From Tubiluchus corallicola (lineage: Eukaryota > Priapulida > Priapulimorpha > Priapulimorphida > Tubiluchidae), in contig JAQGDQ010000048.1 of NCBI GenBank assembly GCA_030141605.1, positions 558,001 to 622,000 of the forward strand: 64,000 nt of DNA, in the 5' to 3' direction. Position 1 is the first letter of the stretch; each line of letters starts with the position of its first letter. Position numbers and translations under genes: made by a program. The notes beneath the pieces were generated by a model. It was not told the DNA's origin and searched no databases. It saw nothing but the letters and a program-made list of their open reading frames with translations. Shown here one piece after another: positions 3,049 to 61,700 of the stretch.

Positions 3049-5106
3049 GTTATCTTCATTTTCACAAAAATATTGGATTCACTAGTTATAGTAAAAATGA
3101 CAGCAAGATGTATGGTATTGAATAACAATATTCGTGGTTATTTAGTATGATCATTGCTGCATATTTTTCCTTCGCAGAAAAACTAAAATTAAGAATTCTC
3201 TTAATAATCAGATGTCATAAAGTTCACATAAACTTTGCTATGGCATGCAATCCCATGTCAACAAGTAAAAACTACAGCTTGTAAAACAATTTTATTGTAT
3301 GCCTTGTAAATTCTTGAATACTTTTATCACACATGTAGATTCATAAAATCTTTATCTACTATTTGCACAATTTCTAAACTATATATTTGGATGTCTTGCT
3401 TACAGGCCAGCCCTGCCGAATTTGAAGCACAAATGAACAAGCTTCGCCAAAAACAGAAAGAACTATGCGAAAACAACACACCCGCCACAATGGAGACATA
3501 CACTGAGTCTACCATGGGACGGTTCATTCAGAAAGTTCGACGAAGCATTTCACCATTACAAGGCATAGATTTCATTCAAGGATTTGGATTTGGCAAAATA
3601 GATAATAACGGTTCGATACCGCTGATTACCAGTTCAGCAGCACCTACACTTGGTCACGAAATATGGAAGAAAGATGAAGTATCTTTGCAAGATTTGGACA
3701 CAGTGTGCCTGAACCAAACTGCTGTACAAGTGCACCGCATAACAACATGTTTGCCCGAACAGGATAGCTACAGTCCTTGCGAAGATGTGATGGGCTACCA
3801 ATTACTCCGAGCAGCAGTTTGGTTTGTGAGCATTACAGCTCTGTTGGGAAATCTTACTGTTATTGTTGTGCTTTTGAGCAGCACCTTCAAAATGAATGTG
3901 TCCAAATTTTTAATGTGCAATCTAGCATTTGCAGACTTTTGTATGGGTTTATACTTATTATTGCTGGCAGCAATCGATGCCCATACACTCGGTGAGTATT
4001 TTAACTATGCGATAGCATGGCAGTGGGAGGGTGGATGTCAAATCGCTGGATTTTTAACAGTTTTTGCAAGTGAATTGTCAATATTCACTCTAACCGTTAT
4101 AACCATTGAAAGGTGGTGTGCAATCACTTATGCCTTACATCTGAACAAAAGGCTAAAGCTTGGACTAGCTAAAAAAGTCATGGTGATTGGATGGGGATTT
4201 GCCATCATTATGGCAACACTGCCTCTGATAGGTGTCAGCAGCTATTCCAAGACCAGCATCTGTTTACCGATGGATGTAGGTTCTATATGGGGACGGTGTT
4301 ATGTTGTGACATTGTTAATAATCACAATGATTGCATTTGTGATTATTTGTTGCTGCTATACCAAAATGTATTGTTCGATACGTGGCCATGAATCCACTGC
4401 AAGCAGTGGAGATGCAACCGTAGCCAAGAGAATGGCATTACTGGTGTTTACAGACTTTGCTTGCTGGGCACCAATAGCATTTTTTGGCTTGACTGCCGCT
4501 AGCAGTTCACCACTTATTGGAATATCCGAATCAAAAATTCTTCTTGTTTTCTTCTACCCATTAAATTCCTGTGCAAACCCCTTTTTGTATGCTATCATGA
4601 CAAAACAATTCCGTCGTGATTTTTTCATTCTTTTGAGCAAGTATGGAATTTGCACAGAAAGGGCGCTTCGACACAAGAGTGAAGGTTACTCTCAGAACCA
4701 TCCGTCACGAACAAATTATAGCGTGAACTACCATACTAACCGTAACACCTCTAATGGAACAGTATTAGCTTTTATAAGCCGAGGTTCAAAATCCTCGATA
4801 AAGTACGAACCGGAGCAGGTCAATAGTCCAAATCCTTGTAAGTCCTCTCCCACAGATGAAAAAGAAACAAAAAAATTAAGTGTTGTACGTGAAATGTCAA
4901 CTGGTAGTAATAAAGACCCTGATACAGTCAACTTTATAGCAACAACAGAAGCTGCTGCTGACTGCAGTACCTCCCCTGAAAATATAGAACTCTTGTCAAT
5001 TGAAGACGGCAAATCAAAGGTGAAGGCAATGCAATTAGACTATAAAAAGGGATCAAGATTATTAGGCAGTTCTAGCCAAGATGAAATACTCCACGAAAAA
5101 GTGTAA
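1346..5106 (+). CDS. Glycoprotein-hormone-receptor-like LGR (leucine-rich-repeat GPCR), 3' part of gene
   Basis: Rhodopsin-family receptor with an LRR ectodomain, of the FSHR/LHCGR/TSHR-like (type A LGR) group; expected at the plasma membrane binding a cystine-knot glycoprotein hormone and signalling through G proteins. Visible coding exons are 1346-1414, 1700-1768, 2558-2632, 2868-3048 and 3406-5106. The first four junctions split a Leu codon as CT/N, the usual LRR-exon phase, and the last junction is phase 0. Sequence marks include HCCAF at the end of the LRR domain, SPCEDVMGY before TM1, ERW in place of DRY after TM3, and NPFLY in TM7. The 5' exons (signal peptide, LRRNT, first repeats) are upstream or unrecognised, so the gene is partial. 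Family assignment is strong. Orthology to one vertebrate receptor cannot be given, because the group predates that duplication. Confidence 0.92.
3406..5106 (+). CDS. LGR terminal exon: hinge, seven transmembrane helices and long cytoplasmic tail
   Basis: The acceptor tacag ends at 3405; the open frame extends a little upstream but those codons are intronic. The hinge (to about 3770) contains a likely N-glycosylation site NQT and ends with SPCEDVMGY (3772-3798), equivalent to the tethered-agonist region of the vertebrate receptors. TM helices lie roughly at 3800-3875, 3907-3978, 4036-4107, 4174-4236, 4303-4365, 4426-4500 and 4531-4600. Cysteines before TM3 (GGCQIAG) and in loop 2 (SICLPMD) can form the usual disulphide. 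RRDFFILLSK follows TM7, as in FSHR. The tail is about 160 residues, rich in Ser, Thr, Asn and Lys, longer than in vertebrate gonadotropin receptors, and shows no recognised domain. The stop is at 5104-5106. Confidence 0.93.
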   Translation, partial: ASPAEFEAQMNKLRQKQKELCENNTPATMETYTESTMGRFIQKVRRSISPLQGIDFIQGFGFGKIDNNGSIPLITSSAAPTLGHEIWKKDEVSLQDLDTVCLNQTAVQVHRITTCLPEQDSYSPCEDVMGYQLLRAAVWFVSITALLGNLTVIVVLLSSTFKMNVSKFLMCNLAFADFCMGLYLLLLAAIDAHTLGEYFNYAIAWQWEGGCQIAGFLTVFASELSIFTLTVITIERWCAITYALHLNKRLKLGLAKKVMVIGWGFAIIMATLPLIGVSSYSKTSICLPMDVGSIWGRCYVVTLLIITMIAFVIICCCYTKMYCSIRGHESTASSGDATVAKRMALLVFTDFACWAPIAFFGLTAASSSPLIGISESKILLVFFYPLNSCANPFLYAIMTKQFRRDFFILLSKYGICTERALRHKSEGYSQNHPSRTNYSVNYHTNRNTSNGTVLAFISRGSKSSIKYEPEQVNSPNPCKSSPTDEKETKKLSVVREMSTGSNKDPDTVNFIATTEAAADCSTSPENIELLSIEDGKSKVKAMQLDYKKGSRLLGSSSQDEILHEKV

Positions 5107-10200: not shown

Positions 10201-11786
10201 CCAGGACTAATTCATAAAATTTTATCAATATAATTTGTAAAAAAATTACTTTGAAACATACCTTCGAAATCTTAGGTTACTATAATTTGCTATGCCGACG
10301 AAAATAATGATAAATAAAACTATGACGAAATTTGGAAGTCTAGAAATGCCAGGTACTCCATAATAGTTACGCTGACGTGTGAATGGATCATCTCTTTCTG
10401 GACGAAAATTCCAGTATGCATCATCTCTCCAATACTGTGGTCCATGTTCAAAGCTAAATAAACATACAGTAAAACCTCTTTACACCGCCTACTTTGGGAC
10501 TGCAAAAAACTTGATTTTAAGTGAGTTTGGCATTATAGAGCAGTTCATTAATACATACATGTCTATGCAAATACAGACATTATATGGACGTTAAACAAGG
10601 TTGGCATTATAAAAGAGGGAGGTTATAACGAGGTATGTGACTCAACAAAATTATCTCTGTGCCAAAGCCATTTTAAAAGTGGTCAATATGCTAATCATAA
10701 AATTCTTATACATAATGCACCACGCCATTATGGTATAAACGAGGCTTTCTCAAATGACTTGAATACAGTATCTCAATGGCTAACCAAAAACAAATCACTT
10801 TTAAACCTGGTGTAAACTAATGTCATGGTCTTTGAAACTTAGTAAAACTTACCAATTTTTGATCAGCCTGACCTGAAACTATCTAGCATATAATAGAAAA
10901 TATATTCAAGAAAATAATTAGGCACAGCTTCTAATTTGGTTATTGACAGCAGCCTCAAATTTGCACAAAACTCAAAACTTACTGCTTAAACATACAACTA
11001 TACTCATTTGCAATTAATACATTTATAATAATTATTCAATTCTCTGACTCTGAATATCCATTGTCCAAGTGACACAGTATTGACTATTGAGAAAAATACA
11101 AATTCGGCATAATAAAGCAGCCAGAATGGTTTTGGAGTAGACATGAGAGCATATGATATATTGATATGCATAAGAAACTAAACTGGTTACCACTAGAAGA
11201 TCGTAGAATGTTAGATTCTACAAATAAATAAGACCAAAGGTAAAAGTTTGCAACAAATTTAACATTATTCCTTGTTTACAAACCTAGTACAAAAATAAAG
11301 TCTTACTCATCTATGCCAGATGGACGATGAAATGGTCCAGAACCCCACGTAGATCCATATGGACTTCCAGTGTACTGCTGATATGTAGAATAATTGTCTG
11401 GCGTGTGGCCATGTCTTAGACCATAGTCATAGAGCCTCTTGGTTTTAGCATCACTTAGAATAGTGTAAGCTTCATTCAGCTGAACAAATTTATTATGCAT
11501 GCTAGGATCATTGCGGTTCTTATCAGGATGGTACTGCAAGAAATGTTTATACCATGGTTCACAAATACATATGTAAAATACTGTTAATATCGTCATTACT
11601 TTTGTAAACGAGATAATCTACACTAATAGAAAGGGGATTTCAATCGTTTTGGCATAAAAACTGCTGTACAACAGCAAAAGAATATTACAAACCTTTTTGG
11701 ATAACCGAAAGAAAGCAGTTTTGATTTCGGCCGGAGATGCATCTTTGTCCACACCAAGAACATCATAATGGCATTTGTATTTCACA
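7282..11786 (-). CDS. DNAJC4: DNAJC4-like J-domain membrane protein (first coding exon not found)
   Basis: HSP40 co-chaperone with an N-terminal J domain and one transmembrane segment; J domains stimulate Hsp70 ATPase. In order of translation the exons are 11693-11786, 11307-11533, 10262-10453, 7900-7986 and 7282-7396. All phases agree and every junction is GT-AG on the minus strand. The J domain reads YDVLGVDKDASPAEIKTAFF, then YHPDKNRNDPSMHNKF with the catalytic HPD at 11522-11530, then LNEAYTILSDAKTKRLYDYG. A hydrophobic helix lies at about 10282-10340. A Lys/Arg-rich tail ends at the TAA stop 7282-7284. The spacing of HPD, S-LH-F-like motif, AY-LS and late TM segment matches DNAJC4 better than other DnaJC proteins. 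The start codon and N-terminus lie upstream of 11786 and were not identified. Confidence 0.85.
7598..7666 (+). pseudogene. tRNA-like sequence (tRNA pseudogene or SINE head)
   Basis: Lies in the last DNAJC4 intron, antisense to that gene. TAGCTTAATTGG (7605-7616) fits the internal A box and GGTTCATGTCC (7648-7658) fits the B box with one or two changes. The ends tcaccag and ctggttt can pair partly as an acceptor stem, and ctgaaag sits where an anticodon loop belongs. Several stem positions mismatch, so a functional tRNA is unlikely; a tRNA-derived SINE remnant is equally possible. Confidence 0.45.
7727..7768. repeat. Alternating purine-pyrimidine (GT/CA, GC) microsatellite
   Basis: Run of tg repeats passing into cacacatgcgcgtgcgggcatgtgtg, inside the last DNAJC4 intron. 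Alternating GT/GC tracts of this kind can adopt Z-DNA. No function is implied. Confidence 0.75.
9650..9810. mobile_element. Probable MITE terminus with repeated ccttatatccaag motif
   Basis: The motif cttatatccaag occurs twice (about 9687-9699 and 9788-9800), with related cttataagcg and cttatatgcg copies around it. The segment ends in ccaagattaactgta, which reads as a terminal inverted repeat beginning at a TA dinucleotide. The matching left end could not be located, so only a fragment is claimed. It lies in the long DNAJC4 intron 7987-10261, in which nothing else was recognised. Confidence 0.35.
10466..10640. mobile_element. MITE fragment with a CAGTAAAACCTCT-type end
   Basis: Starts TA then cagtaaaacctctttacac. 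It ends with ggcattataaaagaggg and a following aggttataacgagg that looks like a degenerate partner of the start. TA-CAGTNAA ends are typical of Tc1/mariner/pogo-derived elements; here the two ends are not cleanly matched. It lies in the DNAJC4 intron 10454-11306. Confidence 0.4.
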
Positions 11787-16800: not shown

Positions 16801-17510
16801 ACGGGCACTAGCGCCTGCATTTCGGAAATGTATTACACAAAAACAGGTGCTGTACCTCTAAGTTCAGATGTGTTAGTTTCTGACGAACTATACAAATTCG
16901 ACAGCTCATGCGTGAGCACAGTGCTAAATTTGAAATTAGAATTTTTATCTTAAAACATGCTAGTTTTAGTATAACGCACTGAATGTCTTATAGTAGCACT
17001 GAACTTCAATTTTCACTTTTGCAAACATGTGCAACATGCTCGTGGAATATTTTTGCTGTTGAAAATTATGTTAGTTTGTGATGTCTTCAATAGTTGGGCC
17101 CGCCCTGCTGTTAATTAAGTTTTTAATCTATTATTTAATTATCAGAAACGTTTATGTAGTATTAATCATGTTAAAATGTATCCTTTTTATCGGACTTGAA
17201 AATGGGGATAATAATATGAAAAATCATCATGTCTCCCTTTAAATTGTAATTGATATATACCCAGAAGTGCTTAGGATGCGATTTTTGGACATTACTAGTC
17301 GTTTTTCGTAATTTTTCTTTGCTTTCCTTATAGTTTTTGTTGGAGTATTTCTTTGTTTAACATACAAGTTGAAGCTAGTAAGATGTTGCCCAGTACAGTA
17401 TTATCTCTGTTTAGACCATTTAGATTTTACAGCTTGATGAGCTTCTTTCGTCATCCAGGCTGGTTTGAGTTTACCAGTTTTGCTCGACATGATGGACAAC
17501 ACTGACAACC
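13850..17510 (-). mobile_element. Degenerate CR1/Jockey-group LINE, frameshifted and interrupted
   Basis: Translating the minus strand from right to left gives LINE pieces in the correct order. First come linker residues KPAWMTKEAHQAVKSKWSK (about 17400-17480) and TIRKAKKNYEKRL (about 17290-17340). Then come RT fragments in several frames at 16655-15667, including YYRPINLTSIICKFL, HKGFDKVPLRKLML and MPQGSVLGPILFLMFINNLP. Last comes the C-terminal FFTERVVREWNQLPAEIA at about 13915-14060. Frameshifts, stops and a changed catalytic motif (FAVVT where FADDT is expected) show it is dead. The gap between the last RT piece and the C-terminus (about 1.6 kb) is larger than the family needs, suggesting later insertions. 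No endonuclease domain was recognised to the right of 17510. Confidence 0.8.
15150..15195 (+). repeat. Short degenerate TTAGGG-like repeat
   Basis: gggttacagttagggttatgg followed by gttaggtctaggctagg: a few imperfect copies of a telomere-like hexamer inside the dead LINE interval. Too short and degenerate to be a true interstitial telomere. Confidence 0.4.
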
Positions 17511-20164: not shown

Positions 20165-23100
20165 ATGATGAAACCAAGGCCATGCTGGGCTTTGAAAGAT
20201 GATAAAGGTGGAGTGCACAAAATTACTTACACTTTAGTCTTTATAGGACGAACCGAATGTGACATTTTATTGCAGGTAAGTTATTCTTATTTGCATTTGC
20301 ACTGCTTGTTTTCAATATCAAATCAGGTTTGTAATTTTGGCAGCAAGTTATGAGTTTCCCTAAACAAATTGGTTGAAGTTTTCACACTGGTACAACATTC
20401 ACAAAACTGAGTATTTTAGTAATACTTTACAGTTCATTTGGTGCTTGAGAACGGATTATTTGCTTTTACATTATTTCTTATGGGAATAAATGATTCGGTA
20501 CTCAACCAAATGGGTTTTCAAACACTTTTTAGGAACGAATTATGGTCGAAAACCGAGGTATGACTATGCCCAAGTCAATTATTAGTAATTCAAATCATGT
20601 CTTCTTTTATTATATCAACAAACAAACAATTATTATTTGTCAGTATGTACTCATTTTGTATTAAAACTGGAAGGTCCGTGTATTTATAAGTTGAGTTTTT
20701 ATGGTTATTTTTCGGTTTATTTGTGTCTCAATGAATTATATTAGGAAATTAACTTAATGAGAAATAAGAATGACGCTGTCACGCTAAAAAACAATAAGCC
20801 TAAGAAATACTCACGTAAAGCAATATCAGTATCATATAGTAAATAAACTAAACTGCACATGACACAATATATTAGAAAACAATTTATAAAAAAGTACTGA
20901 AATAATAAGTTTTTTGAAGAGTGAAGAAGTTACCCAAAATTTTAAAATACGAGGTTGTTAAGTGAGTTAAGATGTACACTAGTATTACCACAGAAAGTTC
21001 TTATTGTATTTATTAATGTGTTAGGTCCCTTGAGAAAAGCTGTGGGGTGTAACGTCAGCATGTGCTATTAGCTATAAAGATTGTGAATCCACCTTTAATA
21101 ACATGTTACTTAAGTTGAGTATGTTGATCTTGTAGTTCTGTGTTGGTTCTGCATTAGAAAACAACTTAGAATTTTTCTACGTTTCTGTTTTTCCTAAATA
21201 CTCAAGCATTTCAACATTCAGATTTGTTAGTTTGATTTATTGTGGTAGTTAAATCTTTAAGTGTTAAATCTTTGTTGCTCATTGTACTGAATGAATGATC
21301 TATTTTTAGTCTCGCAGTGTTGATAACCACCATGCTGTGTTATCACTAGATAGTAGTACTGATAAACTTCAAGTAAAGGACCTTGATAGTTTGAATGGGG
21401 TAAGTTACTTTAGAAACTGTTAAGTTCACTTTTTATTAACATTATGACCTGTTAATTAGCAGGAGGAGGACATATTTACCATTTTTGAATTGATTCTCAC
21501 CAGATCCAGATTAGTTCTTAGATTAATACTGGTGGTCTGGTACTTGATTCTAGCTTATTTTAGCTTTTTTTAGACTCAGTTTTTTGGCTTTAGTTTATGT
21601 TATCAGTATGTACTTGTGTAATTTGTGTTTGACTCATATGCATGCCTTATTTGGATCACTGGCTCACACCAAATCGTTATATTAGCAACCATTAGACCCA
21701 AAGCTTGTAAACTTTTCAAAATTCTTAAACGAAGGCAGGTTATATCAGTACCAAAAATTTTATGAGTACTAAAGCTTATAGTGGAAATTTTGAATGATTA
21801 TCTGCTTGTTGGAAAAAATAATTTTGCTTGCTGTCTCTAAAGTTAAATGCATTGATATGGGATCTTCGAGTGTATGTGCCTGACTTTTAGTCCAAATTAT
21901 TTTTTGGTAACAAAAAAAGTCAGTTTTAGATTGAAAACTTTTGACTAATAAAGTGGGACAAATGCCACAGCTAATGCACTAGCCAGTATCAGGAAGGTTG
22001 TGCTCACTTGCTCACTCAGCTCTGTAACACAAGAAGAGTGTTTAAATTTGAGTTGTTTTTAAATGGATTCTGTTTTCACAAGTTATGCTAAATATTTATG
22101 GTTGTGTGAGGATGTTACATAAGTTCTCAGTCATATCCTGCATGCTTTAACCAAGTACTGTATAGCACTAGCTTGTGTTTCTATGCTGTCGGGATGTCAC
22201 AAATCTGAAATGACTGAATCCTAATCTAAATCGAATTTCATTTTATAAGATTTTTCTAATTTGGTTGCAATCCGAATTTCAGTTTAAAATAATTTTCGAA
22301 TTTGGGACAAATCCGAATTTTGATTTAAAATGACTTTCTAAAATAAATCGAATTTGGATCTCATTTTTTAAAAAAGTTTTTGAACCTAAAAATAGTTCGA
22401 ATCTATGCAGTTTTAATCAAATTGTAACAGATTGATAAGGCAGCGGTGATTTTCACGAAAAAAGGTACATGTAACTTGTCTAAGCAGTGAGCAGTACAGT
22501 TTACAGTAGTTCTGCAATAATAAAAAGTGTGATTTAGTTGTGCTAAAATAATACAAGAAATCTTAGCAGAAATCTTAATACATGAAACTAGCAGTTAAAA
22601 TTGTAACATGCTTTCGCGTAGGATTTTGCGAGCTGGACACATGCTGAAACTGAATATGGCAGCATTTGTTTATTTCAAGTAGAACAAAATTATCAAAAAT
22701 GGTAGCGATTTGAATAGTTTTGCCAAAAAATTTAAAGGTAAAAGAGTGTACAATTACTTCTGCAGCAAAGTGCTAACGAGTCGCTCTGTGGCCGAAGCTA
22801 AACTGAATTTTTTTTCAACAACTGTGCCCAAATTGGGTTAAATCCAGAGTGACATATGTAGAATTTCATTAAACTGAATTGAATTAAAGCTCCGATTCAA
22901 ATTCTTTGGAATCTCCAGTTCTGGCGGAACATCGTAACATCTCTCTGTTGTATGTGAATGTAATTGATATGTTATACTGTTGACAGTATATTTAATTTGT
23001 ATATTTGTAACGAGATTTTGTCAAACAAAGATTATTATACTGAGTTTCTCTTGCCTTAAGGATAGGCCTACTGATGTAATGACTTAATTGATTATATCAA

Positions 23101-24200
23101 TTCAGTTGCGGAAAAGGTCCTCAAAAACTACTTTTTTAGATAAAAATGTACATACGTGTAGATAGATAGTACGTGTCAGATATTTTAAAATAGCTGAGAA
23201 AGTCTCTGTACATGATGTAATGACTAATAAACAAATTGAAAATTTACTAAAAATTTTATTTTTTGTGTTTCTAGACCTTTGTGAATGATTCCAAAATAGA
23301 AGCACAGTCTTTTGTGCCCCTGACTGAAAATGATATCCTGCGGTTCGGATATGATATCCTTTACTAGATTATCAGTGTATTTGTTAGATTATCGACTAAA
23401 ATCAACTAACTCTCTATAATATTAATTTCGGTGGTATGGGGCATTTTATATATTGATACATTTAAGGACGCCTCCACCAAGAGGAGTGGCAACGAGTTGA
23501 TTAGAGGTTTCATTTTCGGCAATTCTTGCTTGGAAAACTGCTTACGCAAAGCCATTGTTATGACATCATTCCATTGTACTCTACCTATAATTTTGTTTAG
23601 TAAAAGCTGCTACTGGCTTTTTGTTATAAATGAGGATTGTGCAGGATGTTCGCATATTATTGATTATAAGCGTATCCATATGCAAAATATTTTGCGGGAC
23701 CTTTGCCAGTTTATTATTGATGTATGATGATAATGGCAAAAACATTTGGGTGAGACATTTTTTGTGCAAAAGGAAGTAATTAGCAAAGAGTGGATGCAGT
23801 GTTCAGTATTTATTGTGGCAGTGGGCAGTTCTCTAAATGAGAAAAACAGTAAAATCTCTAGAAGTTGATATTGTCAAGTAACACAGCAATATAATGTAGT
23901 AAATAACAGTTTTTCACAGAAAATTTTTGTGAGCAATAGTTGCTCTAAATCTACTTGCAATTTGCCTCTAGGATTGCAGGGTAAATTTAGCGCTTATCAA
24001 ATTTTTAAATTGCCTTTAAAAAGCTGAGTGACACTTTTGGTGAATTTGCTGATGAATTTGGTAATCTGTTAACAAGATGTTCTAAGGTGTGTTAAAATGC
24101 GAGAATGTTAGATATTCTCTGTATGAACAATTTTTTCTTGACTTGTCTCACATGCAACAACATACCGTGTTGTCTTGATGGAACCAGTACCTCCTTCATC
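20165..24200 (+). CDS. CEP170: CEP170 exons 1-4: forkhead-associated (FHA) domain
   Basis: The first three exons and the start of the fourth encode the whole FHA fold, a phosphothreonine-binding module. Seen are FIGRTECDILLQ with the conserved GR, SRSVDNHHAV with the Ser and His of the phosphate-binding loops, DLDSLNGTFVN with the NG loop, and ILRFGYDATTYRVV. These match the N-terminus of CEP170 nearly motif for motif. Borders are phase 0 at 20275/21310 and 21399/23275; the third border splits the Asp codon of FGYD (G/AT) across an AT-AC intron. Confidence 0.93.
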
Positions 24201-27200
24201 AGATATTAGAAGCTCTTCTCCCAACTATCAAACTCACTCACATGTGTCAAGTGAAGCAGGTGTAACTCTACCTGATTACAGACCAACAGGGGTATCCAGA
24301 AGCGATCAGTTCATTCCGTCATCTCATGGCGACCAGTATCCCCCTGTTGTGTCACGTGGAGAACAGTTTCCTTCACCTGTAAAACCTCTCCCTAAAGGTA
24401 ATATTATTTTATAATGTTTTTCTTTTATGTGTTGAAATCATTGTCATCAATATAAACAGTTTTTGCATTTAAATAATGGTGATGTTTATATTGTCCACAA
24501 GTTTCACATATAAGTCATATAATTTTTTGCTTGATGTTGGACTAAATTGACGCTTTATTAATTATATATAAAAACTGCATACAGATGTCTATGTACAATG
24601 CTTGTTTGAAATGAGTACTTTTCTGATGTAGGCATAGAAGAAAGTGGAGTAGATACTGCTAAGTCTCACCCATGGTCATCTTATTCTAACTTTCAGGTAA
24701 TAATTTCTGTGATTTGTTTCCGAGATGATGTGACCCATACGGTCATCCAATTTCACTTGTTCCACTCAGTATGAAATTATACTATATCGCAATTATATCG
24801 ACAAGTTGTATTATATTCTTCTGATTGCTGAGTTGATAGCTAACTTGAATGATTGGTCATTATTTTCATTAGGTAATAATAAGAGTGTATTTAGGATGCA
24901 GTTTCAAGTTAAATTTAATTTGCTACCTTATTTTGCACATGTTTTACAGGGCTACCACGATCCATCTCATCCGTATGGTTTAGAAGAGGAATACCATCAT
25001 CACTATCATCGTCATGTGAGACCTTCCCCACCTCGAGTTTTACCACCACCTCGAAGTTATTATCCTCAAGGACCGCCACCTTACGGTCCTCCATGTGCTT
25101 GCTGTCACCCTGGTATGTATAATTTGTTGCAGAGATTCATTATGATTCTGTGTTTCGAAAAAATCCGGAATTTGCTACGTAAATATTTCCTTTTAGGAAA
25201 TTTTTCACTATTGCTTCATTGTCAAGTTAAAGTTTTGTGTAGTTTAACACCATTACTTGTGACCTAGATGACTAAAAACTTTTGTGTAGCTCATTTTTTA
25301 AGATAACTATTCATGTGTAAAAAGTAATAAACGTGTGTTTTTGCAGTATTTATAATTTTTAGGATATGGTTATTATCAGGATAGTTCGCCTTCACAGCGT
25401 GAAGAAATTTATGAAGGCAGAAAAGACAGCAAGCCTCCTATACCTTATCACCCATATCATCATCACCCATCTGCCCATCCTCACGGTTGGGATCACTATA
25501 TGCACGTGGATCCACATCAGCGCACATACTGTAACATTCATCATCCTGGCTGTAGCGATGGGAGAGGTGACGGATATGATGTTGACCGGGAACGTGGTTA
25601 CTATAGTGATTCTGGTCGATTCAGCAATAGTCCTATCATGATGGCTCCGGAATCTGGACTCCTTCGCTCAAAAAAATCTCATTCCAAAAGTGGAGTTGAT
25701 GCTGCAAGTGATAGCAGTGACATTTCTAGGCATGAAAGTGAAGGAAAGGCAAGCAGCGTGAAGCTTGATATTGATGCTGTGCCAACTAGGGAAAGAAAAA
25801 GTGACGATTTCAAAGCTGATGTAGTAAAACCAACCGACGATGTTGCTAAAGAAGATACATTGTCTCCAAATGGTGAGTCTTCTTACAATTTTAAACTGTT
25901 TTTTGCACACCAAAAACATTATGCAGTTTTGGTAGGTAGAATTTTACCTGTTTTTAATCCTTGTTACGTGGCCTGATAAACTGCAGAAAGTACCTGGAGC
26001 AAAAATTTTAGGGCTTAGAGACTGGCTTTGTTGTTTAATTTTAAGTTTTGTGCTTCGCAAAGTCTGCTTCACAGTTTTGGAGTTATAATTACATACACTC
26101 ATAGTTGTTATATAACTTTATGCAGAACCCAGTTCAGTTTGCTTAATTATAAGAATATTTGATTATTGTTACTTTCTTAACAAAATTAATTAAAATGGTA
26201 AACCATTCCAAGCAATGTGAAATAAAATATGCACTCAGTAAAATAGAATAATATTATAATTGGGATTCAATGCTTTTTTGAACCTGTAGTATCTGTACTG
26301 TGGTAGAAAGCTAAATTATTTTGTTTACAATTATTATTTCTCTGCAAGTTTAAAGAAACTGTGAAAACCCTCCTTTTTGATAATTTGCTTATTTATGATT
26401 TTGTATTAACTTTTTTTGCTTGTACTGGTGAAGTGGTTTGAATTTTTGTAAAAAGTGTTTAATAACTTTTTACAAGTTTCTAAAGTACATTGTAAGCCTA
26501 GCCTACTACAATGAATCATTTTTAATTAAGCAGGTTTTGTCACAGGTTCTTAACCTTGCTATACAGCCAAGTACATTAGCAAGATTGCGCAATGTGGTTC
26601 TTAGGCTTCATCCACAGTCCACATCCCTGACAGTCCTCATCTGAGCTGCTTAGCAATATGATATCAAGCTTTGGCATTTTTTACATTCCTTGTGATTCGG
26701 AGGCAGCTTTTTGTTTGCTGAGCTAAACTTGTGATTATGTCTGATTGTAGGGCTGTGACTCAATAGTTTACATTTTGACCATGACCTTGTAAATATGTAT
26801 AGCTTTTGTGCATTGTTTGTGTTATTTTGGAATTGTTGTGTAGCTGTGTATGCAGAGTGGAAAAAACAGTCTGTCATGATCTGTAAATAAACAAGCAGTT
26901 AAAACATGATGTTAGGCTAATGTTCTTACAGCTAGCCAGATGGCAGTGTTCATTGTGTGAAATGTATATAGTGCAGCTGACTTACAGAAGCCAAAGAAGC
27001 GCTCATTTAGTACTGTCCTGTTTGTAACTGTCTGTGTTAGATTATAGTGGTCAGAATGCATACTATATGCATGCTCTTTAACTTAATGTAAGTTTTATTT
27101 TAAATTGTATATTTTAATTTATGAGCATAAAATGAAATTTTAAATTTGTGAGAACATGTATATTAATTAAACGAAATGTGGTGAATGTGCTAAAACCACA

Positions 27201-46717: not shown

Positions 46718-49700
46718 GTAAGTCGGAAGTCAGTCACAGTAATTTCTTTGTGCCAGTTGTGCTGATTTTACTGCTATTCTTGTATATATGGTCATATAAG
46801 TGCTAGAAGAACTAGAGATCAGTTAAAATTTTCGAAGGTTTAAGAGCTAAAAATTGGCTTTGAGTTTCATTCTAGTGTTAAGCTGAATCTCTACATAGCA
46901 AGCTTCTCCCAAAATACTAACTTGTTTAAACCTGCCACAAGGAACCTAGAATAGCCAATGATGTTACTGCTTTTGTCTTTGAACTAGTAATTGTTAAATT
47001 GTCAACAATTGTTAGTAATCTGCAATTTTAAGACTAACCCTTTGCTGCGCAATTTTCATGTATGTAGTCAGCTACATACCTTGACATTTTAAAGATTATT
47101 GTTTTAACATTATCTGACATATAGTAGTTTTGCTGGCATGTGTCTAGATTGATGGATAGCTATATAAGATTCGAGGATAAAATTCCAACAACGGCATTGT
47201 TTTCGGCAGTCCGCACATCAAGCAAAAGTTCTCAATCCAGTGTCATCTCATTGATGGCTTATTTTCCAAATCATGGCCACTGGGAAAAATGGGGGAGGCA
47301 TAAAGCCATAAAGAATGGCTGTTTTTTGCCCTTTCTGCAAATCGTATATCCCTCATTTTGAGAGAATGGGAATGTGGTATGGGTGGTACCTAGAATGGTT
47401 GGATAGCTCATTCAGTGATGGGTGTAGCACTTATATTTTGCAGGAGTGCCAAATCTGAATGTGCATTTTTCCAAACTCAACTACTTTCTGGCATAAATGT
47501 CTTGCGTATTTTATCAGATGGTATTTCTAAGTGTTTTCTTTTTGATGGCAGCATGCTTGTAACTGTGACCGAGGCCGGTAGTGTAAATATACTGGTTTAC
47601 ACCCTTTATCGTATCTATGACTGGGGTTTCTCATATTGCACAGTTCTCCAGCTTTCTTTGCCGATCATTTTTTATAACGGTGCTCATTCTTTTGGGAGTT
47701 AGCTATTGAGTGGAATTTTGCAGATCCTTTGTTCATTTTAATGGCTGACACAGTGACTTTCAGCGGCACATCATCACAGTTCTTGCCATCTAGCAGTAAT
47801 TGTTGGTGTACAGTAGGTGCCGCTTAATAGACCCACTTTGGCACCGAAGTGTTTTGTTCCATTTAATCGACTGAACCTGTTTACCGATGGATATAGTATT
47901 ACTGGTCTAGAAGTACGAGTCATTAGCTTAGATGCACTGTAAAGGTTTTTAATGAATTTTAGAAACAATGTAATGCCTAAATTCCTACGTGCTGTTAAAA
48001 ATTTAAAAAATATTTTCAAATATTAATTTATATAAGTGAATTAGCAATAAATTAAAAACTATGCTTTTCTAAATCACACAAGTCTGTTTATTTGCAAAAA
48101 TTACAAAATTTCCTTCAAAGTCGGCTGCTTCATTTTATCGCAAAGAAGTTGGCTGACAAAGTTTTCAAAATGATAGAAACGTTGTATGATGCAAAAATTC
48201 TCATAAAATACTTAGTGCTTGGCATGCTTAAGCTGTTGGTTTGGTGGTGCCTGTGTTTCCCCGCAGCTTCGTCTAAGCTCCTGCTTGCTATAATTGTAAC
48301 ATGCACACTTTTAAATACACTTAATTCAAGCAAATCACCAGGACTGCAAAATATACCTAGTTCTTTTTTTAAATCTGCAAGTCAAATTATTTGACCAAAA
48401 CTCACATTACTACTTAATAAATCGGTTATTACTGGAACTATTCCAAATATATTAAAAATAGCAAAAGTTATTCCTTTATATAATGGCTCTCCGCATGAAC
48501 CTGGAAATTACAGACCAATATCTCTCTTATCACCAGTATCAAAAGTTTTTGAGAGGCTAATTTACAAGAGATTATACCAGTTTGTTGTGAAAAGCAATAT
48601 CCCAAGTAAATACCAATTTGGTTTCAGAAAAAATTATTCAACTGCCCTTGCTGTATCCGAATTAATAGACACGGACTCTCTAGACACTGACAAAAAATTA
48701 CTGAATTGTGGACTATTTTTAGCCTTATCAAAAGCTTTTGATATACAGCTTAGTATACAGCATAGTATACTAATAGCCAAATTAAACCATTATGGCATCA
48801 GAGGTCTACCTTTGCAACTGATTCAGTCATATATAACTAACAGAAAACAATTCATATCTATTAACAATGTATCATCAGACTATAAACACATATCATGTGG
48901 AGTGCTACAAGGCTCTAATTTAGGACCGCTTTTATTCTTAATTTATATTATTGACCTTCCCACATGCAGAACTTTCGAATCTGAATATTTGCCAGTGACT
49001 CTAATTTGTTCATGTCTGACTCCAATATAAACAATCTGCAAAAATATGTCAATGAAGAAATGAAGAAAATAGACCTGTGGATGAGGGCAAACCAGCTATC
49101 AATTAACTACAAAAAAACCAAATTTATGATAATCAACAACAAGCAAATTAACAATGCTAATAATCCAAAATTTCATATTATAATTAACAAACACAAAATT
49201 GAAGAAACAGACAACATCAAATACTTGGGCCTACTCATTGATAACAAATTAACATGGGAACCACATATAAAACACATAATATACAAATTAAGTCAAATTA
49301 CCGGAACAATTTTAAAAATAAGGCACTATGTCGACCAGTATATTCTGAAACGTCTATATAATTCATTAATTTTCCCTTATTTGCAGTATTCCATCTTAAC
49401 ATGGGGTACGGCTTTTGCATCTATCCAAAATTTAATACAGACACAACAAAAAAATAGTAAAATTAATAATTTTTGCTCGCAAGTATGATCATGCTACACC
49501 ATCGTTCATAAAATTACAAATTTTAAAGGTAAGAGATATTTACAATTTTGAATTGTTCAAATTTATGTATAAATTTAATGCTGGTTTATTACCAGAACTT
49601 TTTAGTGAATATTTCACTAATGCTTCTGATATACATTCCTACTTCACAAGAGCTGCTTCTAATGGACAGTATTTTGTGGAGAGATTTTTTACCCGACATG

Positions 49701-58700: not shown

Positions 58701-61700
58701 CTGATTAAACCACATAAACACGCTGACGTAATGATGTAAACAAAGTGACGGCCCGCCAACTAGTGGTCAGCTCGCGAAACATCAGCCTGTGTCCGTAATA
58801 TACTGGGCTTTTTAACAGTCCAGATTTTGTCCGATTCTTCTGATATCCGTAAAATTGAGGTCTGGCAAACCCAGATATGGGTGTACCTGTTTTCGATCGA
58901 AAGTCTTAAAGAACTTCTTTCTTTTAAATTTGAAAGTTCATTGATACCGCAGTGTTAGAATTGTTTACATTTTCATAGTAGTAATAAACTCTGCTTTGCA
59001 TAGTCAAGCTAATTTTTTTCTTATCCTGTTTAGCATGTCATGAGTGAACTGTTCTGGCTTGGACAAAACCCACTACTAGAAAGTGTTGGTAAACATGAAC
59101 CAGAAGTTGAAGCAATGAGGTCCATCTTGTGTAGTTCTGTGCAAGCTTCTATATATCCTGTTACTGCTTATGCTGTAAAATACGAAGCTCGACTAGACTT
59201 GTTTTTCCTTGATGTAAAACAGTACATCAAGTATGACTGCTTTTGTGATCACTGTTTTGTTACTATTTTTATTTGATGTTGTCATGAAAATGAAGCATTT
59301 GGGCAGTCTTAGGAATTGGTATTAAGTATTGACTCATTTATTTGCTTTTGTTTTTGAAAGTAATCTGTGATTCATTGTTACTCATTTACATTTACCAGAC
59401 AGTTATGACAGACATTAATAAAAAGTATTGTGTTGAAGATCTTATTGGTTCTCAGTCTGTTATTTCCATAGCCCATATGTATATTTACATATTACTTTTC
59501 TGTTTTTTTCCCAGTTTTCTTATTATTTCATATCAAGTGATTGTGCTGATTTGATTTTGATAACTACTGTTCAATTGGTAGCATAGTCACATTGCAAATG
59601 CACAAATCAAATTAATTCTTCAGAAGAACTGCCTCAGTTATATGACTATGGCTGTAAGCAACCAAATGTAAAGTTATATGTTCCTACCGATCAAAGAAGT
59701 GTGCTTGTTGCATCTTATGTTTTGGTATGCGATTAGAATTGGTCATTTCAATTATAGACTCAATTATACAAAAATGCGTTGCCTTGACCAGGTTTGCAGT
59801 GCACAGAGCTAACAACGGTTTTTTAATGACTAAAGTAATTACATTACACAATAAAAATGTTTTCGATTAGTTCAGTGAGTTGGACTCACTTCCAATGTCA
59901 CTTAGAGTTCCATTTATTCGCCTTTTGATTTAAAAATTACTCAGGTTATAAATGTAGAAGCTTTTATTTGTTGGCATTTGTTAAAAAGAACTTGCAAATG
60001 GTAAATCTCTTTACCTGACTTTTTCTTAGCTGCTTAAGCCTTTAGTCACATGCGCATTGCTTCATATTGTAGGTTGGAAAGTGTCCTATGATAATTAAAC
60101 CTGGGAATTCATCTATAAACTTAGCTGGCTGTGTTTTCGTATAATAATTATTATGATGACAATAAGAGAAAAAATTAATTATATTTGTTTTAGGGCATAT
60201 GATTCTCAGCATCATAGTGCAGCTGAGTTTAGAAAAGAGATCAGCATGCACTTGGCAGAGAAACAAACACTTGAAGCAACGATTCCACCAAACATCGTTA
60301 TAGGCGCTTTCTACATCAACACTGACACTGTCAAGCAAAATCTAATAAAGAAACGCAAAGCTATTGCTGTTGCATTACAGGAGTTGCTGGCTACAACTTT
60401 ACGTATAGAAGCAGTGCAGGTAGGTAACTGCAGAAGCATAGAAGTATTGGTGGGGCGAATCATTTTTCAGAATTTATTTTGAGGGATTCTATTGTTTGTT
60501 TATAGCTGATTAATGAATACAAAAACATCAGCAAAAGACTATATGAAAAGCCGCAGTGCATGGAGGATTTGTCTGAGACGCGTGAATGGATGCTTACTAT
60601 TCCTGAGATGATGGAGGAATTACAAGAAAAAGCTGCTGTTGTCATAGAAGATCACAACGTCTTGGAAGAATTCTGGTTTCCTTTGAGTGGTGATGGTTTT
60701 TCTTCACTGTAAGCTAATGCTGATTTGTCAGTTTTATTAAAAAAAGCAACTAATTTTTCTGTATGATTATTTTTGTACTTCAATATTTATGTATGTTTTA
60801 TTCCACTTTAATTTAATTTGAGATAAATGGCTACCAGTGGTGGTTACTTGTTATTCATGCTATTTGTCAAATAACAATTCATTGTTTTTTAACTCTCTAC
60901 TAATGCTTATGCTAAAGTTCTAAATTAAAGTGAATAGCCGAATTTCTGCCTTGGTAACAGTTGAATTTTTATATGAGAAATGTAAAATAAAAACTTAAAA
61001 AACTAAAATGTATGAGCGAAAAACACATGGCAGTACAAAAATGTGAAAATATCTAGTTAAATGAAAACATTTTCAATTTCAATGATGATGTAACTAGAAT
61101 GTGTACAAATATAATCTTTTATGTTAAGAATATGCATTATTATGCGAGAGTTGCACTCTTAGATTATAGCATTTTCACACGTTTGCTAGCTAACTGTTAG
61201 ATGTGATAGTTGCTAGAGAACTTAACTACATTGTCTGAATAGGTGGACACTAATTGGCTGGCCACATAACCTTGAGTCACAAATTGAAGAAGTTGTTCAG
61301 CAGCACCTGGAAGATGAAGAGAGATTTAGACGAATCCAGCAAACTGACCAAGTTAATTTTGATGATAGGCTGGATGGTGTGAGGGTAAGGTTTATATTAC
61401 CGTAGTCGTCGACTTATAACCACAATCACTTCTGGGACTAATTGGTCTTAAGATGAGTAGGATACAAATCAGGTCCATATGTTCAAGGAGTTGTGTCCCT
61501 AACTGTAAGATATTGTATGTACGTGCAGTAAGCGTGGTGGTGCTGCGGATGAATTTATCGAAAGAGATGGAAAAAATGGAAATATTAGTTATAATTAGTT
61601 TTGTGTAATTAATTAATCAAGTTCTGGTCAAGTCGTAAAGTCGAGCAGTCGTGAGTTGCATAAGTTGTAAGTCGACGACTGCCTGTATAGAATTAGTTTG

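Follow-up and report, generated by a model that had tools for sequence, protein, structure and literature searches.

Minor introns of the AT-AC subtype account for 24% (PMC8280824) or about 26% (PMC10639083) of human minor introns in these sources, so that their description as rare even among minor introns, made in an earlier note on this DNA, was overstated. The donor of U12-type AT-AC introns follows the consensus ATATCCTT(T), as given in a section of PMC2831892. In human cells, the splicing of AT-AN minor introns is promoted by CENATAC, and its depletion affected 92% of A-type versus 24% of G-type introns; the minor AT-AC intron 21 of human IPO5 was among those assayed after this depletion (sections of PMC8280824). 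Minor introns are biased against phase 0, and very little evidence exists that new ones arise (PMC10639083). Loss of ZCRB1 results in mis-splicing of ciliary minor-intron genes (PMC13216214).

The CEP170 gene analysed here, located in a window of 64,000 nucleotides (the whole stretch of DNA that was analysed, G000:C64:558001-622000), very probably contains a U12-type AT-AC intron, judging from the sequence, and the genome carries the minor-spliceosome snRNA genes. CEP170 is a protein of the centriole and cilium. The intron resembles the known U12-type AT-AC (A-type minor) introns in four features: (i) a ATATCCTTT donor; (ii) a TTCCTTRAC-like branch site near the end; (iii) an AC end; (iv) phase 1. 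It has no structural difference from them and appears to be a true, though unremarkable, member of a familiar intron class. With IPO5 intron 21 it shares the subtype, and CENATAC exons are found in this genome, whereas the gene is a different one and the CEP170 intron is known from DNA. A likeness can also be drawn to the minor introns of IFT88 and CCDC28B, which are ciliary genes (PMC13216214), CEP170 being likewise a centriole/cilium gene. CEP170 has 0 occurrences in the main text of PMC13216214 and a single mention in PMC11684760, in the title of a reference. A connection between CEP170 and a minor intron was not found in the article texts searched, and intron databases or supplementary tables quite possibly include the intron already.

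The CEP170 gene and its AT-AC junction

The FHA domain is encoded by four exons of the plus strand, which are given below together with the intron and its signals.

20165..20275, plus strand: first CEP170 exon read, with the first FHA residues (MMKPRPCW...CDILLQ), donor GTAAGT
21310..21399, plus strand: CEP170 exon SRSVDNHHAV...DSLNG, acceptor AG, donor GTAAGT
23275..23353, plus strand: CEP170 exon TFVNDSKIEA...LRFGYD, with base 1 of the D codon as its last nucleotide
23333, plus strand: weak in-frame alternative AT donor within the exonic ATGATATCCT copy 23330..23339, 21 nt upstream
23354..24151, plus strand: AT-AC intron, U12-type by its signals, 798 nt, phase 1
23354..23362, plus strand: U12-type 5' splice site ATATCCTTT, forming a 6-bp duplex with each of the genome's U11 and U6atac (computed)
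24134..24142, plus strand: U12-type branch site TTTCTTGAC, putative branch A at 24141
24150..24151, plus strand: AC 3' splice site at the frame-consistent junction
24152..24397, plus strand: CEP170 exon finishing the FHA domain (ATTYRVVLMEP...), donor GTAATA

The start codon of the first exon was picked by eye, and an acceptor-like AG with a possible 5' UTR lies upstream of it. The spliced peptide has human CEP170 (4jon) as its best PDB match (E 1.9e-27, against 3.8e-7 for the second of 10 matches), with SNIP1 among the weaker ones, which makes its N-terminal FHA domain closest to that of CEP170. The Pfam FHA core comprises residues 26-92. The CEP170_C domain (PF15308) was not detected in the genome (where no control match was obtained), in four downstream ORFs or in the joined downstream exon peptides, and the name CEP170 therefore rests on the FHA domain. 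A search of the whole genome (343.5 Mb, 2344 contigs), which by its genes is that of an animal, returned five matches with this domain, four of them being the exons listed above. One CEP170 gene was thus found in the assembled sequence, the absence of a further match not being proof of a single copy. The fifth match, on contig C1723, has no intron at the corresponding position; it was considered as an intronless CEP170 paralogue or retrocopy and rejected, since it reads by eye as a SNIP1-like FHA protein.

The borders of the intron read ...TGCGGTTCGGATATG / ATATCCTTTACT...TTTTTTCTTGACTTGTCTCAC / ATGCAACAACATAC. Joining 23353 to 24152 gives LRFGYD/ATTYRVV, which aligns to human CEP170 LRFGYDTNLFTVV (PDB 4jon). 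All GT-AG, GC-AG, AT-AC, AT-AG, GT-AC, AT-AT and AT-AA pairs with a donor in 23290-23365, an acceptor in 24060-24299 and a frame open to 24397 were enumerated, 171 pairs altogether. Both FGYD and TTYRV are kept by two of them, AT-AC 23354/24151 and AT-AT 23356/24153. These two pairs produce an identical mRNA, because AT is present at both ends; the junction could lie at either of two positions 2 nt apart, which reads cannot tell from each other, while the register of the U12 donor favours AT-AC. Restoration of the FHA end FGYDATTYRVV, proposed in the earlier note, is confirmed by this enumeration, and the coordinates given there for the intron are exact. The same note had placed the intron inside the FHA domain. 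More exactly, the intron lies in the codon of residue 94, just past the Pfam core, and is followed by the ATTYRVV residues, which align with the human FHA end.

It is extremely unlikely that the true junction is that of a GT-AG or GC-AG intron with the FHA end made in a different way. Such pairs do occur within the open frame (10 GT-AG and 10 GC-AG, 20 of the 171), but none of them yields the FHA end, and all lose both FGYD and ATTYRVV, the two segments aligned to human CEP170.

Splice signals of the intron

The donor agrees with ATATCCTTT at 9/9 positions and is the sole full match among the 12,246 AT dinucleotides on both strands of the window; it likewise fits the ATATCCTT(T) consensus at 9/9. 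By count alone the motif is non-significant in the 64-kb window (1 found, 0.96 expected), and what gives the donor weight is therefore its position, since a junction is required there by both homology and frame. The usual distance of a U12-type branch site to the intron end is short. The branch site TTTCTTGAC matches TTCCTTRAC at 8/9 positions and its putative branch A precedes the final base of the intron (24151) by 10 nt, as the earlier note had described for a branch-like site about 10 bases before the terminal AC. Among the 7,356 AC dinucleotides, 16, including the AC of this intron, have an 8/9 branch match whose branch A stands at a distance of 8-16 nt to the intron end, and none has a 9/9 match. 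When the 41 AC acceptors of 23400-24299 are compared, the one fixed by the frame is the best on branch match, with 8/9 versus 6/9 for the runner-up.

Pairing of these signals with the snRNAs of the same genome was computed. If the branch A is bulged out, U12 can pair with the branch region at 9/9 positions, with G-U or U-G pairs at two of them; the lowest-energy computed U12 duplex is a different one, which has a 1x1 mismatch between its two helices (7+4 bp, -7.4 kcal/mol). Without a fixed register, equal or better snRNA duplex energies are obtained for 280 of 12,245 AT sites and 136 of 7,352 AC sites.

Terminal AT and AC dinucleotides do not by themselves define a minor intron, as AT-AC introns of the major class exist (85 are named in a part of PMC8280824), and a pyrimidine-rich stretch, recognised by eye, stands right before the AC. 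Removal of the CEP170 intron by the major (U2-type) spliceosome is nevertheless highly unlikely, for its donor ATATCC fits GTRAGT at 2/6 positions, compared with 9/9 for the U12 donor RTATCCTTT. GT-AG ends are seen in the other four introns read in the gene, whose donors fit GTRAGT at 4-6 of 6 positions. An assembly or base-call error giving an intron of another type an AT-AC appearance has hardly any probability: the intron sequence rests on one assembly, but the donor, branch site and AC end are mutually consistent, and, were only the first base wrong, a donor of U12 type and an AC end would, by reasoning, still remain.

Two copies of ATGATATCCT are present on the plus strand of the window, the exonic one at 23330-23339 and the one at 23351-23360, 21 nt apart and in frame. 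Use of the donor at 23333 in the exonic copy would drop ILRFGYD. It is conceivable, and very improbable, that the minor spliceosome chooses between these two in-frame AT donors and so determines whether the FHA domain is complete or lacks ILRFGYD, its activity tuning the binding of the CEP170 FHA domain. A second U12-like donor, GTATCCTTT at 17178-17186, matches the G-type minor donor and was taken as a chance occurrence; RTATCCTTT is counted 2 times against 1.53 expected, and the surrounding region 16900-17400 was read by eye only.

Minor-spliceosome genes and proposed removal of the intron

The genome search proposed in the earlier note revealed genes for all four minor-spliceosome snRNAs, each above its Rfam cut-off and untruncated: U11 (101.7 bits), U12 (105.9 bits), U4atac (86 bits) and U6atac in two copies (112.4 and 74 bits). 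U4atac is computed to pair with U6atac of the same genome. The lower-scoring U6atac copy (L004, G000:C1024:835508-835631) is the more diverged and is perhaps a pseudogene or a variant. A profile search for CCDC84/CENATAC identified five stretches on contig C2008, four above the cut-off, covering profile positions 1-134 and 279-320 of 330, and the fifth below it. Two of the five cross an in-frame stop, as a match overrunning an exon edge would. The U11-48K zinc finger is common to other proteins. A genome search with it gave 6 matches, none of which could be assigned to U11-48K on this basis.

Sequence gives good support to the U12-type reading of the CEP170 intron: the donor and the branch site fit, the intron ends in AC and is in phase 1, the FHA end is preserved by none of the GT-AG and GC-AG junctions enumerated, and all four minor snRNA genes as well as CENATAC exons are present in the same genome. 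The removal of the intron may be envisaged in sequential order. U11 and then U6atac would pair with the ATATCCTTT donor, U12 would pair around the branch A (24141) and leave it bulged, and excision of the 798 nt by the minor spliceosome, with the aid of CENATAC, would follow. Without splicing, the frame reads FGYDILY followed by a stop, so that a splicing failure would leave only a truncated FHA domain and probably lead to degradation of the transcript.

An old origin followed by retention is the most likely history of the intron, as the gain of minor introns has little evidence in its favour; its phase 1 agrees with their bias against phase 0. Sodium-channel genes served as a positive control, at a place where those of vertebrates have an AT-AC intron. 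A sodium-channel query segment gave 21 genome matches, of which four copies (C347, C246, C240 and C433) were read. An AT-AC intron was not seen in these four, all of which have AG acceptors; the donor, read in C347 only, is GTAAGT. The control thus failed, a point against the U12-type reading, and the genome need not retain every AT-AC intron. The AG acceptors of the sodium-channel-like copies (L019, L014, L016 and L018) may represent conversion in this lineage.

Predicted dependence on the minor spliceosome and gene neighbourhood

If the U12-type AT-AC reading is true, the minor spliceosome, and probably CENATAC too, would be needed for the expression of CEP170, at least in this animal, and a ciliary consequence of this dependence might be expected. 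If other animals share the intron position, CEP170 joins the candidate genes behind the ciliary effects seen when the minor spliceosome is defective; otherwise, lineage-specific retention or gain would be indicated.

The neighbours of CEP170 within the window are a rhodopsin-type receptor (3310-5103), a DnaJ protein on the minus strand (11306-11617), a reverse transcriptase fragment (48395-49027) and an exon at 60099-60479, whose best match is dynein axonemal heavy chain 1 (E 1.7e-14).
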